From Opitutus sp. GAS368 (GTDB lineage Bacteria; Verrucomicrobiota; Verrucomicrobiia; Opitutales; UBA953), in NCBI GenBank assembly GCA_945866215.1, contig CAMBGQ010000012.1, positions 1 to 41,529 of the forward strand: DNA of 41,529 nucleotides. Reading direction: 5' to 3'. The translations under genes were made by a program, and so were the position numbers. Positions 22,440-28,545 of this stretch are shown here, piece by piece. The first letter of the stretch is position 1; the number at the start of each line of letters is the position of its first letter. Below the pieces are notes generated by a model. It searched no databases. It was given only the letters and a program-made list of their open reading frames with translations, and was not told the DNA's origin.

Positions 22440-23794
22440 AGGTCGAGGGGGACGCCCGGGTCGGGATCGTGCACGCGGGTGCCGGGCAGCGCGGCGGCGA
22501 GGGTCTCTTTCATCCAGGCCCGAGCCGGCGGGTCGCCGTGCGTCAGAATGATGTCCTTCGGGGCCAGGTCCTTCGCAAAATCGATGAGCTCCTCGCGATC
22601 GGCGTGACCGCTGAGGTGGAAGCGTTCGACCTTGGCGCGCAGGATCGAGGTGTGGTCGAGGGACTTGAACTTGAATTCCCCGCCGGGGTTCATGCCGATC
22701 AGTTCGCCGCCCGGGGTCTCTGGGTCGCAGTAGCCGACGAAGAACACTGCGTTCTCCTCGTGGTCGAGCATGTTTGCGGCGACGCGCCAAGCGGGGGTTT
22801 TTTCGACGAGCATGCCGCTGGAGAGGATGTAGATGCCCCGCTCCGGCATGTTCTTGCCAGGCTGCACGTATTTGCGGGAAAGGGGCAGGATGCCAAGGTC
22901 CCGCAGGACCTCGCGGCGGAACTTCACCTGTTTGGTCTTCTTGCTGGCCGCGTCGAGGTAGTCGCAGAGGTCGAGGCCGAGCCCGGAGCAGAAGATTGGC
23001 ACATCGGCGAGGTCTCCCTCGTCGGCGACCTCTTGCAGCAGCATGAGGACTTCCTGCATGCGGCCGAATGCGAAGGCCGGCAGCAGCACGGAACCCCCGG
23101 CGTCGCAGACGGCGTTGATGGCCTTGATGAGCCGGCGTTCTTCCCGGCCGCGGTCGAACGACGGCTGAGTCGCGGTCGCTCCGCGCGTACATTCCATCAC
23201 CAACGTATCGACGGGCGTCCGGGGGAAATTGGCGGCGGCGACCGTGCGCTGGGCTTGGAAGTGGACGTCGCCGGTGAAGAAATGCTTTTTCCGGCGGTGT
23301 TCGACCAAGCAGCCGACGGCGCCCGCGGTGTGCCCAGCGAGGTGGAAGGTGAGGGCGACCTCCTCGCCGCCGCGACCGATGACGCGGGGGTTGGCGAGGG
23401 GCACCGCCGCCAGGGCGTTCTCGACGCGCTCGACGTCGGTTTCGACATAGAGCGGGTAGTCGGCGTTACCGGTCTCCTCGCGCTGGCGTTTCATCACTTG
23501 GATCGAGTTGCTCAGGAGACGCCGGACGAAAAGGGTCGTGGCGGCCGAAGCAAAGACGCGGGCCGTCGGGTGCTGCTTCAGCAGGAGCGGGAGCGAGCCA
23601 AGGTGGTCGAGGTGGCAGTGCGTGAGGATCACGCCGTCGACTCCGCCTTGGATCTTATCGAGCTGGGGTAGCGCCTTGCGGCCGTCCAGTTTCGGATGGA
23701 GGCCGCAATCAAATACCAACCTCAGTCCACCGAATTCGGCAAGTAGGCAGTTGGCGCCGATTTCGCGGCCAGAATTAAGGTCAGTGAGTCGCAT
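22436..23794 (-). CDS. Beta-CASP metallo-beta-lactamase RNA-processing exonuclease family protein
   Basis: The 452-aa protein has the MBL core (THCHLDHLGS, the HxHxDH motif; AGHTAGAVG; FTGDVHF) and the beta-CASP cap (LLPAFAFGRMQEVLMLL, SSGM). Motif C is SGHADREELIDF, with ILTHGDPPA at the C-terminus. The layout is that of the YSH1/CPSF73-like prokaryotic group that cuts or degrades RNA, rather than RNase J, which carries a different C-terminal domain. Cytoplasmic RNA turnover is inferred. Its ATG shares one base with the apaG stop (TGATG), and its TGA overlaps the amidase GTG. Confidence 0.88.
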   Translation of the reverse strand: MRLTDLNSGREIGANCLLAEFGGLRLVFDCGLHPKLDGRKALPQLDKIQGGVDGVILTHCHLDHLGSLPLLLKQHPTARVFASAATTLFVRRLLSNSIQVMKRQREETGNADYPLYVETDVERVENALAAVPLANPRVIGRGGEEVALTFHLAGHTAGAVGCLVEHRRKKHFFTGDVHFQAQRTVAAANFPRTPVDTLVMECTRGATATQPSFDRGREERRLIKAINAVCDAGGSVLLPAFAFGRMQEVLMLLQEVADEGDLADVPIFCSGLGLDLCDYLDAASKKTKQVKFRREVLRDLGILPLSRKYVQPGKNMPERGIYILSSGMLVEKTPAWRVAANMLDHEENAVFFVGYCDPETPGGELIGMNPGGEFKFKSLDHTSILRAKVERFHLSGHADREELIDFAKDLAPKDIILTHGDPPARAWMKETLAAALPGTRVHDPDPGVPLDL

Positions 23795-24225
23795 CAGGAA
23801 GGATCGGGGGGAGGGGTCAGGGGGAAGACCGGGATACGCGTGAAGATACGTTCGCCGGAAGCGGTGGTGCCGTGGAAGGAACCTTCGGCCGTCCGCGGGC
23901 CGCCAGCCAGGTGGTAGCTGTTATAGGAGAATTTTTCCCCGGGGGGCAGGGTAGGGGTCTCGCCCACGATGCCATCTCCCTCGAAGATCTCGATCTGGCC
24001 GTCCGGCGAGCGGATGATCCATTTTCGCCCCAGCAGCTTCACCGTCTCCTGCGAAAGGTTGCTGATGGTCAGGAAGTAGACGAAGGCGTGCGGGGTTTCG
24101 GGAGGAAAGTTGGCATCCCGGTGGTGGACCACCTTGTCGACGGTGACCCTGAGGCCTGGGAGTTCCTTTCCGGTGGGTTGCACTTGGGCCAAGACAAGAG
24201 GGGATGGTCCGGCTAAGGAAGCCAT
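23794..24225 (-). CDS. apaG: ApaG domain protein
   Basis: The 143-aa protein matches ApaG (DUF525): VYFLTISNLSQETVKLLGRK, then WIIRSPDGQIE, the central GDGIVGETPTLPPGEKFSY and a C-terminal GSFHGTT with IPVFPL. These form a small fibronectin-III-like fold. The role of ApaG is unclear; it was named for co-transcription with ApaH and appears also as a substrate-binding module in F-box proteins. The first gene of the apaG - nuclease - amidase unit, it is divergent from the tri-domain DedA fusion across 72 bp. About 15 N-terminal residues precede the usual start of the domain, so a later start is possible. Confidence 0.9.
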   Translation of the reverse strand: MASLAGPSPLVLAQVQPTGKELPGLRVTVDKVVHHRDANFPPETPHAFVYFLTISNLSQETVKLLGRKWIIRSPDGQIEIFEGDGIVGETPTLPPGEKFSYNSYHLAGGPRTAEGSFHGTTASGERIFTRIPVFPLTPPPDPS

Positions 24226-24297: not shown

Positions 24298-26943
24298 ATG
24301 CTTATCTCAGCCGAGCGCAAGAGCAACCTCGGGCGCGTCCCGCGGAAATGGTGGCTTGTTTCCGCCTACCTGCTGCTCCTCGCGCTGTCGGCGACCTTCC
24401 CCTTCTTCAGTGCCATCGAGACCTCCGACAAGGGTGACCCAATCCGGGTCCCGGCCTTCGACTACGTGGATGATAAGCTTACGCGTCTGGATATCACCAT
24501 TCCCATCCGGGCCCGCCTCCACGGCGTCCAAGGCGGGGAAGAAGCCCGGCAATCCGCCCAGCTGGTCTTCCGTAAGAAGGTCATCGTCTATCTGCACCGC
24601 ATCCCTTGGGACCAGCGGGGCTCGCAGTTCTGCGCGGAGCTCGCCCGCGACCCCGACATCTCCGTCATCGAGCCCTTCCTGCCGGGCTTCCGCAACACGT
24701 CTGGCGCCGTGCCTAATCATTCGATGGAGGTCAACGCCGAGGTCGTCGCCGGCCTGGTCGAACACTTCGGTCTCAAGGAGTACCACGTCATCGGCCAAGG
24801 TTACGGGGGTATCGCCGCCCTCGAGCTGGCTTCATCCCATCCGGACCGCGTCCGCTCCCTGACGTTAATCTCCTCGCCCGGCGCCCAGGAGTTCGAGCTG
24901 ATGGGGAATCCGCTGGTCAACAAGATTGTCTATGGCTTCCAGGGAGCCGGCCTCTGGCTCTTCAGTCGTTTGACGCCTTCTTTTGGTGCCGTCGATCTGC
25001 TGCCGGTCGACGGGAACTATGCCCAGACCGTCTTCGATACCGATATGACGGAGTCCAAGAAGCTACTCAGTCAGTGGACGCAGCCCCTGCTTCTCATCCA
25101 CGGTGAAGACGATTGGATGACGGCAGTCGAGACCGCCAGGTATTCCGCTCTGCTGGCGCCGCAGGCCAAGCTCGCGGTCATCCCGGGCGGCCGCGATGCC
25201 GCCTTCGAGGCCATTCCGGAGGTCGCCGGCAAAGTCCGGGATTTCACCGCCGAGGTCGCCGGCGGAGCCGGGGCGCGGGTGACGTCGCCCAGCCAGGAAT
25301 ACCCGCCGATGCCGCTGGCGAGCGGCATGCGCTACTGGATCCTGCTCCTCGTCATCCTACTCTGCACCTTCGTCGCCGAGGATCCGACCTGCCTGGCTTC
25401 TGGTCTGATGGTCTCCGTTGGCATCATCGACTTCTGGTCGGCCGCGGCAGCCTGCACAATCGGCATCTTCATTGGCGACACGGTGCTGTATTCCGTCGGT
25501 CGGTTCCTTGGTCGGAAGGCCATCCGGAAGGCGCCGTTGAAATGGTTCATCAAGGAGCACAAGGTCAACCAATGGGCGGGCTGGTTCTCGACGCCGAAGG
25601 GCATGCTCGTCGTCGTCAGTTCCCGCTTTGTCCCCGCTAGCCGCGTCCCCACGTTCGTGTCCGCCGGTATCATGAAGCTGAACGCCCTACGCCTCGGGCT
25701 GCTGCTCCTCGTGGCGGCCTTGATCTGGACGCCCCCGTTGATGTGGCTGGGCTACACTTATGGCTCCGCGGCGATGGACATTCTTTATCGCTTCAAGAAC
25801 AACGCCCTCTGGGTGATCATCGGCTTCCTGTTCTTGCTGCACTTCCTCACCCACTGGATGGTGCCGGCGTTGACGTGGCGCGGCCGCCGGCAGATCGTCA
25901 TGAAGGTCCGCGGCTTCCTGCAGCCTTCGTTGTGGCCCTCGACGCTGCTCTATTTGCCGATCCGGCTCGGTATCCTCTGGCTTTGCCTCCGCTATCGCCG
26001 GCTGACCGCGTTCGCCTCCGCCAACCCCTCCTTCGGCGTCGTCGGTGGTTTCATCGGCGACACAAAATCCCTCCTCCTGCGTCCCTTCCAGCGCGACTCG
26101 CGTTGTTGCCCGACCTTGGCGCTCTCCCTTGAGGATAGCCAAGAGGAGCGGGTCAAGCAGGCCGCCGCTTTCGCCGCCTGCCATGCCTTCCCGGTCGTCT
26201 TCAAGCCAGAGGTCGCCGAAGACGGCGCCGGCCTGCGCTACGTCGCCAATCAAGTGCAGCTCGAACGCCTCGTCCGCTCAGCCCAGGAGGACTTTCTTCT
26301 GCAGAAGTTTATTCCTGGACTCGAATTCGAAGTCGTCTGGCGTCGTAATCCCGGCAAAGACGACGGCCATGTCATGACCCTCGTGCAGAAGCGCGACGTC
26401 ACCGTCCGGGGCGATGGCGCGCAGACGCTCGAGGAGCTCATCTGGCTCGACGAGGTGGCGGTCTCTCGCGGCGAACTCTTCATCCAGTGCCATGCGCGCG
26501 GACTCAACCGCATCGTCCCGGCCGGCGAGAAAGTGACGCTCAATCTCAGCGGTAGCTACGGGCACGGCGCGCGCTGCCTGCGTCGCCAGGATCTCGTCAC
26601 CACGGAGCTCGACCTCGCCATGGGGGCTTTCGCCAAGCGTTTCCCGGGTCTGCATTTCGCTCGGTTCGACCTACGAGCCGGGACGATCGAGGACCTCAAG
26701 GCCGGCCGTTTCATCGTCACCGAAGTGGGCGGCTGCTGCCACGTCTCGAGTCTCTTGCGCGACAGCGCGCTGCGCCTCTCCCGTTCGTACGCCATCGTCT
26801 GGGTCCAGCTCAAGGCCTGCCTCGAGGCCGGCGCCTATAATCTTTCTCAGAATGTCCGCCCCGTTCCACTCAGCGAGCTCATGGCCCGCTGGAGCCAGGC
26901 TCGTGGGCGCGCCGACGAGTTTGCGGTCAGCGAAGAAAGCTGA
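24298..26943 (+). CDS. Tri-domain membrane protein: inactive-looking alpha/beta hydrolase + DedA/VTT + ATP-grasp
   Basis: The 881-aa protein has an N-terminal membrane helix (about 19-38). An alpha/beta-hydrolase domain (about 55-320) follows, with strands VIVYLHRI and LLLIHGEDDW. Its nucleophile elbow reads GQGYGG, so Gly168 replaces Ser, and Arg299-Asp300 stand where the His is expected. A DedA/VTT domain (about 344-500) shows IGDTVLYSVGRFLG, SSRFVPASRVPTFVSAGIMK and WLGYTYG. Two further hydrophobic segments (500-563) precede a C-terminal ATP-grasp domain (about 600-850): VVFKP (Lys636), RGDGAQTLEELI, ARFDLRAG (Asp791), FIVTEVGG (Glu809). The usual metal Asn after that Glu is Gly811. DedA proteins move lipids such as undecaprenyl phosphate; ATP-grasp enzymes make amide or ester bonds. 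A lipid-linked modification at the inner membrane is inferred. GAGG lies 4 nt before the ATG. Confidence 0.85.
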   Translation: MLISAERKSNLGRVPRKWWLVSAYLLLLALSATFPFFSAIETSDKGDPIRVPAFDYVDDKLTRLDITIPIRARLHGVQGGEEARQSAQLVFRKKVIVYLHRIPWDQRGSQFCAELARDPDISVIEPFLPGFRNTSGAVPNHSMEVNAEVVAGLVEHFGLKEYHVIGQGYGGIAALELASSHPDRVRSLTLISSPGAQEFELMGNPLVNKIVYGFQGAGLWLFSRLTPSFGAVDLLPVDGNYAQTVFDTDMTESKKLLSQWTQPLLLIHGEDDWMTAVETARYSALLAPQAKLAVIPGGRDAAFEAIPEVAGKVRDFTAEVAGGAGARVTSPSQEYPPMPLASGMRYWILLLVILLCTFVAEDPTCLASGLMVSVGIIDFWSAAAACTIGIFIGDTVLYSVGRFLGRKAIRKAPLKWFIKEHKVNQWAGWFSTPKGMLVVVSSRFVPASRVPTFVSAGIMKLNALRLGLLLLVAALIWTPPLMWLGYTYGSAAMDILYRFKNNALWVIIGFLFLLHFLTHWMVPALTWRGRRQIVMKVRGFLQPSLWPSTLLYLPIRLGILWLCLRYRRLTAFASANPSFGVVGGFIGDTKSLLLRPFQRDSRCCPTLALSLEDSQEERVKQAAAFAACHAFPVVFKPEVAEDGAGLRYVANQVQLERLVRSAQEDFLLQKFIPGLEFEVVWRRNPGKDDGHVMTLVQKRDVTVRGDGAQTLEELIWLDEVAVSRGELFIQCHARGLNRIVPAGEKVTLNLSGSYGHGARCLRRQDLVTTELDLAMGAFAKRFPGLHFARFDLRAGTIEDLKAGRFIVTEVGGCCHVSSLLRDSALRLSRSYAIVWVQLKACLEAGAYNLSQNVRPVPLSELMARWSQARGRADEFAVSEES

Positions 26944-27540
26944 TCAGTCGCGCGCCGTGAAGGCGTGGCAGAGGGCCGTGGCGGCGGCGTCGGATTCATC
27001 CAGCGGCAATGCGTGGCCGAGGTGGAGCACCGACCGGATCATCCGGCCGACCTGTTCCTTCTTGGCGGCGCCATGGCCGGCCACCGCCAATTTGATGCGC
27101 GTGGGGGCGTATTCGCCGACCTTGACCCCCAGGCGCGCGAGGACGCTAAGGGCGGCGCCGCGCGAGGCGCCCATGGCTTGGGCGGTCCGGAAATTCTGCA
27201 CGTAGATAGTCTCCTCGATGGCCGCGTGCGTGACGGCGTGTTCGCGGACCAGTCGCTCGACCTCGTCAGCGATGCGACCAAGGCATTCGAAGGGTGCGAG
27301 CTTGGCACCCAGCCGGACGGAGACGCTTGCGAGGAGGCGCATCGGTTCAGTGCGCGCGTCGATGACGGCGAGGCCAGTGCCGCGCAACGAAGGATCGATG
27401 CCCAGGATGATGGCGCGACAGCCGCGCCCGCCGAGACTGGCCTTGGCCGGACGGCTTCGCTGGGCCTTCCCCCCGGTTGGTGATGCCGCGACGCCCCGGA
27501 GCTTGTCCGTCCAGAGCGAGCGCGAAGATTTGCGGGCCAT
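26944..27540 (-). CDS. ruvC: Crossover junction endodeoxyribonuclease RuvC
   Basis: From the ATG at 27540 the protein is 198 aa. The RNase H-like catalytic residues are Asp49 (ILGIDPS), Glu109 (AAIEETIY) and Asp181/Asp184 (LDESDAAATAL), the four carboxylates of RuvC; the region FRTAQAMGASRGAAL also fits. It resolves Holliday junctions with RuvAB, which are not in this window. About 40 basic N-terminal residues (Lys/Arg/Ser-rich) precede the domain and are absent from E. coli RuvC; they could aid DNA binding or reflect a start further in, though no later ATG exists before the domain. The stop abuts the convergent fusion gene exactly (TGATCA). Confidence 0.92.
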   Translation of the reverse strand: MARKSSRSLWTDKLRGVAASPTGGKAQRSRPAKASLGGRGCRAIILGIDPSLRGTGLAVIDARTEPMRLLASVSVRLGAKLAPFECLGRIADEVERLVREHAVTHAAIEETIYVQNFRTAQAMGASRGAALSVLARLGVKVGEYAPTRIKLAVAGHGAAKKEQVGRMIRSVLHLGHALPLDESDAAATALCHAFTARD

Positions 27541-27630
27541 GGGATAACGATGGGCGCTCGCGCCATGATTTCCACCGCAAAAGCGCCAGCGCCGGATTGC
27601 CACGGTGGGTGAGCGAGCTAAGTTTGGGTC

Positions 27631-28545
27631 ATGCGGTCCATGCTCTCCCTCACCTGCCTTGTCTGGGGTACGCTGGGCGGGGCCGCGGAGCCCGAGGTCA
27701 TTCGCCGGGTCGTCCCGGTGATGCCGGCGCTCGCATTGAGGAGCGTCGGCAAGCTCAACCTGAAGCTCGTGCCGGAGTGTTCGGCTCTTTGGCCCAGTCC
27801 TTCGCAGCCGGGCGTCTTCTGGACGCTGTCGGACTCGGGCGGCCAGCCGTTGATCACGCCAATACGGGCGGACGGCGCCATGGTGCCGGTCGGCCAAGGT
27901 TTCTGGGGCGCGGTCACACTTAAGGGCGCCACGAACGTCGACTGGGAGGCCATCGCAGGCGATGTCGCCGGCAGCATGATTGTCGGCGACGTCGGTAACA
28001 ATGTCTCTCGCCGCAAGGAACTGGCATTCTATCTGTTCAAGGAGCCGGCTTTCGGCGTCACCACCGTCGACAAGGTCCGTAAGGTGGGCTTCAAATGGCC
28101 CGACCAGACCGCCTTTCCGGATCCGGAACTCACCTATGACTGCGAGGCGATGTTCCTCCTGCGCGGGCAGCTGCACTTGCTAACTAAGCATCGCCGTGAC
28201 ACCCTGACGGATCTTTGGCGGGTGGAGATTCCCGCGGTCGGAGAGCGCGCGACGTTGACCAAGGTGGCCCGGTTTGACATCGGCGGCATGGTCACGGATG
28301 CGTGCCTTTCGCCGGACCAGACGCGGCTGGCGATCCTCACTTACCGCAACCTCTGGGTCTTTGACGTCCCGGCGGCGGGCGCGGATTTCTTCCGGGCGCC
28401 GGCGCGGTATGCCCCGCTCGCCCCGCCGGCACTTTCCTTCCAGATCGAAGGCTGCGCGTGGCTCGACGCCAGCCATCTCCTCCTCGGCTCCGAGCAGGGT
28501 GATCTCTTCCGCATCGCGCTCACGGACCTCCGCGAGGTAAAGTAA
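27631..28545 (+). CDS. Secreted beta-propeller-like protein with GD-GNN motif
   Basis: The 304-aa protein begins with a probable signal peptide (1-18, ending GTLGGA). The body shows PGVFWTLSDSGGQPLI, NVDWEAIAGDV, MIVGDVGNN and a YDCEAMFLLRGQLHLLTK block, then MVTDACLSPDQTRLAILTY. This sequence of motifs (W-SDSG, DWE-IA, GD-GNN, D-EA) recurs in exported phytase-like or esterase-like propellers as I recall them, but no enzymatic function has been established that I can name. It is periplasmic or secreted, divergent from ruvC across 90 bp, and followed by a terminator for the convergent transketolase gene. Confidence 0.72.
   Translation: MRSMLSLTCLVWGTLGGAAEPEVIRRVVPVMPALALRSVGKLNLKLVPECSALWPSPSQPGVFWTLSDSGGQPLITPIRADGAMVPVGQGFWGAVTLKGATNVDWEAIAGDVAGSMIVGDVGNNVSRRKELAFYLFKEPAFGVTTVDKVRKVGFKWPDQTAFPDPELTYDCEAMFLLRGQLHLLTKHRRDTLTDLWRVEIPAVGERATLTKVARFDIGGMVTDACLSPDQTRLAILTYRNLWVFDVPAAGADFFRAPARYAPLAPPALSFQIEGCAWLDASHLLLGSEQGDLFRIALTDLREVK

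Follow-up and report, generated by a model that had tools for sequence, protein, structure and literature searches.

The window analysed here is a 41,529-nucleotide stretch of DNA from Opitutus sp. GAS368 (contig CAMBGQ010000012.1). On its forward strand it carries a gene that reads as one uninterrupted frame of 881 codons, and the encoded protein is confirmed to combine a membrane anchor, an alpha/beta-hydrolase fold, a DedA/VTT domain and an ATP-grasp domain in a single chain. The features are as follows, with domain boundaries taken from our reading of the full-length AlphaFold2 (AF2) model.

24298..26943, + strand: whole gene, 881 amino acids, stop codon included
24343..24396, + strand: N-terminal membrane anchor, residues 16-33; a helix of the model, preceded by positive charges that suggest a cytoplasmic N-terminus
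24442..25260, + strand: alpha/beta-hydrolase fold, residues 49-321, predicted periplasmic (Pfam, AF2 model, Foldseek)
25324..25932, + strand: DedA/VTT domain, residues 343-545 (Pfam, NCBIfam, hhalign, AF2 model)
25933..26907, + strand: ATP-grasp domain, residues 546-870, predicted cytoplasmic (family profile, AF2, Foldseek)

Domain architecture, distribution and predicted topology

Two of the three domains are recognized by Pfam above cut-off. Abhydrolase_1 matches residues 128-202 (E 4.3e-13), and VTT_dom (PF09335) matches residues 369-486 (E 5.1e-11, 43.6 bits against a gathering score of 33.9). The ATP-grasp part of the window protein has a sub-threshold Pfam match alone, to CPSase_L_D2 (E 0.011). 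A profile of 24 ATP-grasp domains compared with the sequences of the Protein Data Bank (PDB) matched cyanophycin synthetase and glutathione-synthase-type enzymes, with a best E of 6.5e-9. Modelled alone in AF2, this part gave a predicted local distance difference test score (pLDDT) of 93.6 and a predicted template modelling score (pTM) of 0.90. The best Foldseek match of that model is cyanophycin synthetase 7wae (E 4.6e-12, probability 1.00), and others are the bifunctional glutathione synthetase GshF and Ddl. The N-terminal part matched esterases in Foldseek, the best being 7dq9 (E 4.9e-10). The VTT part aligned with E. coli YqjA in hhalign (probability 95, E 2.8e-8), and from the DSSP helix list we read it as two re-entrant hairpins and three membrane helices. 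The full-length model, computed from the window protein and 42 relatives, contains three folded modules plus the anchor, with mean pLDDT 85.8 and pTM 0.74.

The original prediction, made from the sequence of the window, had proposed these three modules in this order, a DedA-type lipid-transporter domain and an ATP-grasp fold at the C-terminus. Pfam, AF2, Foldseek and the family profile agree with the order, and the two domain assignments stand. It had also taken the ATP-grasp domain, by its GDG-TL-ELI style, for an uncharacterised group. We reject this, given the likeness to cyanophycin synthetase, GshF and Ddl; the stretch in question aligns with cyanophycin synthetase and the glutathione-synthase-type enzymes.

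The same domain order was found in the genus, the family, the order and other phyla. Its recurrence across genomes argues that the fusion is not an error of assembly or frame, and we reject that explanation. A chance open reading frame is likewise rejected by the conservation of the protein and by the selection analysis below. In a close set of 57 genomes, including that of the window, 43 contained some match, and by our reading the protein is present in 34 of the 37 genomes of the genus. Two of the other three had no match and one had a separate VTT protein only; some genus copies are interrupted at contig ends. Some match was present in 74 of the 177 genomes examined from the order, and by our reading 53 had an ATP-grasp-bearing relative, 15 within the window's family (f1) and 38 outside it. 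The matches in these 38 run from the hydrolase onward in 24 (one of them, in G146, cut by a contig end), cover VTT and ATP-grasp in nine, and comprise ATP-grasp alone in five.

We scanned GTDB with alignment A3, using one pattern in the VTT part. By our count the best 80 of 166 relatives (L080-L159) comprise 51 members of the window's clade and 29 others, rows being assigned to the clade by similarity; the tree contained 16 rows of that clade. The 29 are labelled as Acidobacteria (9), Verrucomicrobiota (7), Fodinibius/Aliifodinibius (4), Gemmatimonadetes (3) and Planctomycetota (3), among others. Three-domain relatives thus occur in five phyla by record label, including named Fodinibius strains, and the suggestion that the fusion may define a class is supported. 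In a tree of 64 ATP-grasp rows the 16 rows of the window's family form one starred branch (100/100) on a long stem. Two- and one-domain forms are scattered among the three-domain ones, with seven changes for the three labels; the tree is midpoint-rooted, and its root cannot separate gain from loss.

Some further observations concern individual copies. That of G025:C133 is split by an in-frame TAA. Two records labelled Polynucleobacter and Coprobacillus (L112 and L121) have proteins like those of the window's clade, and their assembly names are probably wrong. Within the genus the domain-wise identities are out of step, making the gene a mosaic. L007, for example, has the same hydrolase and ATP-grasp types as the window with a different VTT type, and L025 has the ATP-grasp type alone in common with it. 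Such identities suggest that parts of the gene have been exchanged within the genus.

The hydrolase is predicted to lie outside the membrane and the ATP-grasp domain inside. A hydrophobic segment ahead of the hydrolase is clear in 61 of 80 three-domain rows, and lysine and arginine are more numerous before it than after it in 55 of these 61 (equal in five, fewer in one). In the window protein the helices at 379-404 and 500-524 lead into basic stretches. Both the charge bias of the anchor and these basic stretches fit the predicted arrangement, which agrees with the cytoplasmic position that the original prediction gave the ATP-grasp domain. Six of seven two-domain relatives start, as judged by eye, with a signal- or anchor-like segment before the VTT domain, and L063 starts without one.

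Catalytic and transport residues in the window's clade

The residues that distinguish the window protein from its relatives, and those that it shares with known DedA proteins, lie at the following positions.

24799..24801, + strand: residue 168, Gly at the position of the catalytic Ser of most relatives outside the clade (alignment)
25192..25194, + strand: residue 299, Arg at the catalytic His position; the His is kept in parts of the genus and family (alignment)
26722..26730, + strand: E809-V810-G811, a degenerate Glu-x-Asn metal site with Asn replaced by Gly (alignment)
25381..25383, + strand: D362, aligned with E. coli YqjA D51 (hhalign)
25624..25644, + strand: the stretch R443 to R449, both Arg aligned with YqjA R130 and R136 (hhalign, alignment)

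With G168 and R299 the window protein lacks the nucleophile-Asp-His triad of a hydrolase. The nucleophile position is Gly in all 52 rows of the window's clade, the window included, and Ser in all 25 rows outside both that clade and Fodinibius. A second, overlapping set gave Gly in 44/44 rows of the family and Ser in 15/15 others of the order. We read the window hydrolase as a pseudo-hydrolase. The four Fodinibius/Aliifodinibius rows (L129, L134, L136 and L142) also have Gly at the nucleophile. They lie apart from the window's clade in the tree, and their His and ATP-grasp site are intact despite the lost Ser.

The asparagine of the Glu-x-Asn site is present in 29/29 rows outside the clade and in none of the 47 readable rows within it (five gaps). 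Of the 47 readable rows, 12 have also lost E809 and nine have lost R789. The metal ligands expected of the enzyme, an Asp and the Glu-x-Asn pair, are incomplete in the window, where D791 and E809 are kept and the Asn is G811. The site was equated with that of Ddl by motif; the hhalign alignment to DdlB spans the ATP-binding part alone, and the PDB profile alignment reaches this region solely in a low-scoring second segment. From the alignment we read the window ligase as weak or dead. Within the order, genus g22 (G074, G089, G117, G138, G191 and G201) keeps the fusion, with E809, N811 and R789 lost in all six genomes, none of which has a gene of the GNAT family PF13444, that of the OlsB-like neighbours described below. 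A general pairing of E809 loss with PF13444 loss was rejected: it is true in g22 and fails in G006, where E809 is lost and PF13444 kept.

The VTT residues E361, D362, R443 and R449 are conserved in 81/81 rows.

Selection was examined by the ratio of nonsynonymous to synonymous substitution rates (Ka/Ks) for the window paired with each of 15 clade relatives; many pairs had Ks >1, and the values are rough. Ka/Ks was 0.11-0.27 in 10 pairs for the hydrolase. For the VTT domain it was 0.04-0.24 in 12, with values of 0.27 and 0.37 in two more and one saturated. For the ATP-grasp domain it was 0.08-0.21 in 11, with four saturated. The degenerate domains look retained under purifying selection in most pairs, with no sign of decay.

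Genes linked to the fusion

A same-strand gene resembling OlsB and/or OlsA lies upstream of the fusion, at about 4.4 kb or less, in 20 of the 29 loci outside the clade (OlsB-like in 18 and OlsA-like in 18, by clustering). OlsB is the best NCBIfam name in L129 (E 4e-45) and L139 (E 2.8e-34), and OlsA in L139 (E 3.7e-36), in each case below the equivalog cut-off. Pfam names example neighbours as GNAT PF13444 (OlsB-like), acyltransferase PF01553 (OlsA-like), DinB_2 and TANGO2. In L129 and L142 the fusion, counted from its earliest possible start codon, shares four bases with the end of the OlsA-like gene. DinB-like genes occur in 16 of the 29 loci by clustering and 17 by profile, and TANGO2-like genes in 10 and 11 respectively; both lie upstream in the seven Verrucomicrobiota loci.

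Co-occurrence was analysed in the order outside f1, comparing the 38 genomes that have the protein with 124 that do not, kinship being ignored in the statistics. TANGO2-like genes were found in 33/38 vs 8/124, each of the 33 lying less than 5 kb from the protein, DinB-like genes in 32/38 vs 9/124, and PF13444 in 35/38 vs 33/124. The TANGO2 profile was derived from the neighbours because the Pfam model missed divergent members, finding 29 of the 177 genomes where the derived profile found 41. Within f1, profile searches found neither DinB-like nor TANGO2-like genes in any of the 15 genomes, and PF13444 is present in nine.

Several observations bear on the clusters themselves. In five genomes where the search met no ATP-grasp relative of the fusion (G060, G078, G107, G154 and G174), DinB-like and TANGO2-like genes lie about 2 kb or less from PF13444. 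The TANGO2-like proteins of these clusters (alignment A6) start with Met-Cys-Thr in 13/13, so that Cys2 could be an N-terminal nucleophile. A Rieske and ferric-reductase-like protein is encoded upstream in seven loci (L137, L139, L140, L150, L151, L152 and L157; Pfam-named in L139), and in some loci the same upstream extension holds small proteins without a Pfam family.

In the window no OlsB/OlsA-like gene adjoins the fusion, which is flanked by two genes that we do not think are part of the system.

23794..24225, - strand: ApaG-domain gene, divergent (PF04379, E 1.1e-18)
26944..28176, - strand: RuvC gene, convergent (PF02075, E 7.2e-29, residues 257-404 of a long frame)

Proposed function and comparison with known systems

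The linkage to OlsB/OlsA-like genes, together with a carboxylate-amine ligase fold and a lipid-transporter fold, leads us to infer a probable ancestral role in modifying and moving an amino-acid lipid. OlsB-like and OlsA-like acyltransferases would build an N-acyl amino-acid lipid. In the cytoplasm the ATP-grasp domain would activate a carboxylate as an acyl phosphate and form an amide, either on this lipid or with the free amine that it carries. The product would then cross the inner membrane by way of the VTT domain, and on the far side the periplasmic hydrolase might remove or transfer an acyl or aminoacyl group. The window's lineage combines intact VTT residues with a degenerate ligase site and an apparently dead hydrolase, and lacks the DinB-like and TANGO2-like partners, as might be expected of a repurposed protein. 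Given these lost partners and lost residues, the protein there is most likely a transporter whose two other domains are non-catalytic. We put the probability of the whole reading, an aminolipid membrane machine that in this lineage has become a lipid transporter whose two other domains bind or regulate, at roughly 0.4. The original prediction had the fusion handle a lipid carrier and ligate a group to it. The lipid connection is strengthened by the OlsB/OlsA-like neighbours, but the working enzymes that it assumed do not agree with G168, R299 and G811. The derived state of the window's lineage, with its losses of Ser, Asn and partners, had been missed.

A number of points weigh against this reading. 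OlsB and OlsA already yield a complete lipid, so the added ATP-grasp step is a guess. No OlsB/OlsA-like gene adjoins the fusion in the seven Verrucomicrobiota loci, for three of which less than 1.6 kb of upstream DNA is available (more may lie beyond) and for three more than 7 kb; L154 and L155, also without such a gene, have less than 0.5 kb. In Opitutales genomes the PF13444 gene is mostly located elsewhere, and 32 of the 37 genomes of the genus retain it. E809, D791 and the ATP-binding lysines are all retained in the window, and one lost metal ligand need not kill an ATP-grasp enzyme. Five of the 15 hydrolase pairs do not have low Ka/Ks: three are saturated, and L098 and L102, in which the hydrolase half is far more distant from that of the window, gave about 0.62 and 0.63. 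Finally, three of the four COG0586 residues (E39, D51, R130 and R136) are kept, the E39 position of YqjA being a gap, and the VTT part scores 52.1 bits against an UptA equivalog cut-off of 250 in NCBIfam.

An unlikely alternative, though the best placed of the rivals, is that the protein recycles undecaprenyl phosphate (Und-P), with the VTT domain as an UptA-type flippase and the soluble domains editing or sensing the carrier or its headgroup. In NCBIfam the VTT part matches UptA models best, and it keeps the equivalents of D51, R130 and R136, which are tied to Und-P flipping in the available part of PMC10127716. However, those UptA matches are far below cut-off and the E39 position is missing. 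Moreover, among the eight of 28 listed neighbour clusters to which Pfam was applied there are no cell-wall genes; two have no family, and the others are acyltransferases, DinB, TANGO2, Rieske/ferric reductase and DoxX.

We also think it unlikely that the window protein is still a working ligase or hydrolase with altered chemistry. In its favour are purifying selection, which in most pairs acts on every domain, the retained ATP-grasp residues noted above and a PF13444 gene in the window genome (a 599-residue frame). Yet Gly lacks a side chain that could serve as nucleophile, the window His is also lost, the partner genes are missing from all 15 family genomes, and g22 keeps the gene despite its own losses of E809, N811 and R789.

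It is improbable that the locus is a haem or redox-stress cluster with a core of TANGO2-like, Rieske/ferric-reductase, DoxX- and YHS-type proteins and the acyltransferases as bystanders. Clustering places Rieske/ferric-reductase-like genes in seven of the 29 loci, DoxX-like in six and TANGO2-like in 10, and a profile finds the YHS type in two; but OlsB/OlsA-like genes are commoner (20), and TANGO2 is reported, in the part of PMC11867700 available, as an acyl-CoA-binding protein. A frozen accident joining domains unrelated in substrate would account for the two- and one-domain relatives on separate branches, but is very improbable given that the three-domain form occurs in five phyla by record label and, outside the window's clade, keeps its active-site residues, the Fodinibius hydrolase excepted.

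Extended to its fullest, the aminolipid reading would describe one-chain machines spread across phyla, in which ATP-grasp modifies an OlsBA-type lipid, DedA flips it and the hydrolase finishes or recycles it, with one Verrucomicrobiota lineage stripped to a transporter with two dead enzyme domains. Taken as a whole this is doubtful. If true, it would be the first case of a DedA transporter acting on an amino-acid lipid free of phosphorus, in a class previously undescribed. To our knowledge, no route across the inner membrane is established for ornithine lipids and other aminolipids. The words transport, flippase and DedA do not occur in the available main text of an aminolipid review (PMC11631085). 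The fusion ties DedA to ATP-grasp chemistry within an OlsBA-like cluster, and so offers one gene, present in named Fodinibius strains, with which to probe both aminolipid crossing and DedA substrates. The form stripped of catalysis, found in the window's clade, amounts to a natural experiment parting transport from enzyme activity. We found no account of a DedA and ATP-grasp fusion in a literature search that covered mostly open-access papers and no preprints, which is no proof that none exists; three papers contain both terms, and their titles point to unrelated subjects. Neither TANGO2 nor DinB was met among the matches listed for a further literature query.

Each domain has known relatives. 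The COG0586-type DedA proteins YqjA and UptA share the VTT domain and the D51, R130 and R136 equivalents with the window protein, which differs in lacking the E39 equivalent and in having hydrolase and ATP-grasp domains fused on. The DedA fusions named in the part of PMC10127716 available are with rhodanese, PAP2 and pyridine nucleotide-disulfide oxidoreductase, the present one not being among them, and DedA substrates beyond the Und-P type are there called putative. Cyanophycin synthetase, GshF and Ddl are alike in fold, ATP-binding and the GDG stretch; the window domain differs in being fused to a membrane transporter, and in its clade lacks the Glu-x-Asn asparagine. ABHD5/CGI-58 and NDRG are pseudo-hydrolases of the alpha/beta fold. 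Such proteins similarly keep the fold and have lost the nucleophile, but the window protein is membrane-fused, and the loss is seen in its clade and, apart from that clade, in Fodinibius.

At the level of whole systems, the MprF synthase-flippase with hydrolases of the AcvB/VirJ type similarly unites a cytoplasmic synthase, a flippase and a periplasmic hydrolase for an aminoacyl lipid. The likeness is one of working logic; the MprF synthase is a tRNA-dependent transferase, whereas the fusion would use ATP-grasp as synthase and VTT as flippase, all in one chain. Of the ornithine-lipid enzymes OlsB/OlsA, OlsF and OlsH/OlsI, the first pair is connected with the fusion through the genetic linkage of its relatives to OlsB/OlsA-like genes. 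In one planctomycete an ATP-dependent amide synthetase, OlsH, and an alpha/beta-hydrolase O-acyltransferase, OlsI, make ornithine lipid according to the available part of PMC12493201, a pairing of enzyme types like that in the fusion, and chemistry of the proposed kind therefore exists. OlsH belongs to the GH3 family, unlike the ATP-grasp domain of the fusion.

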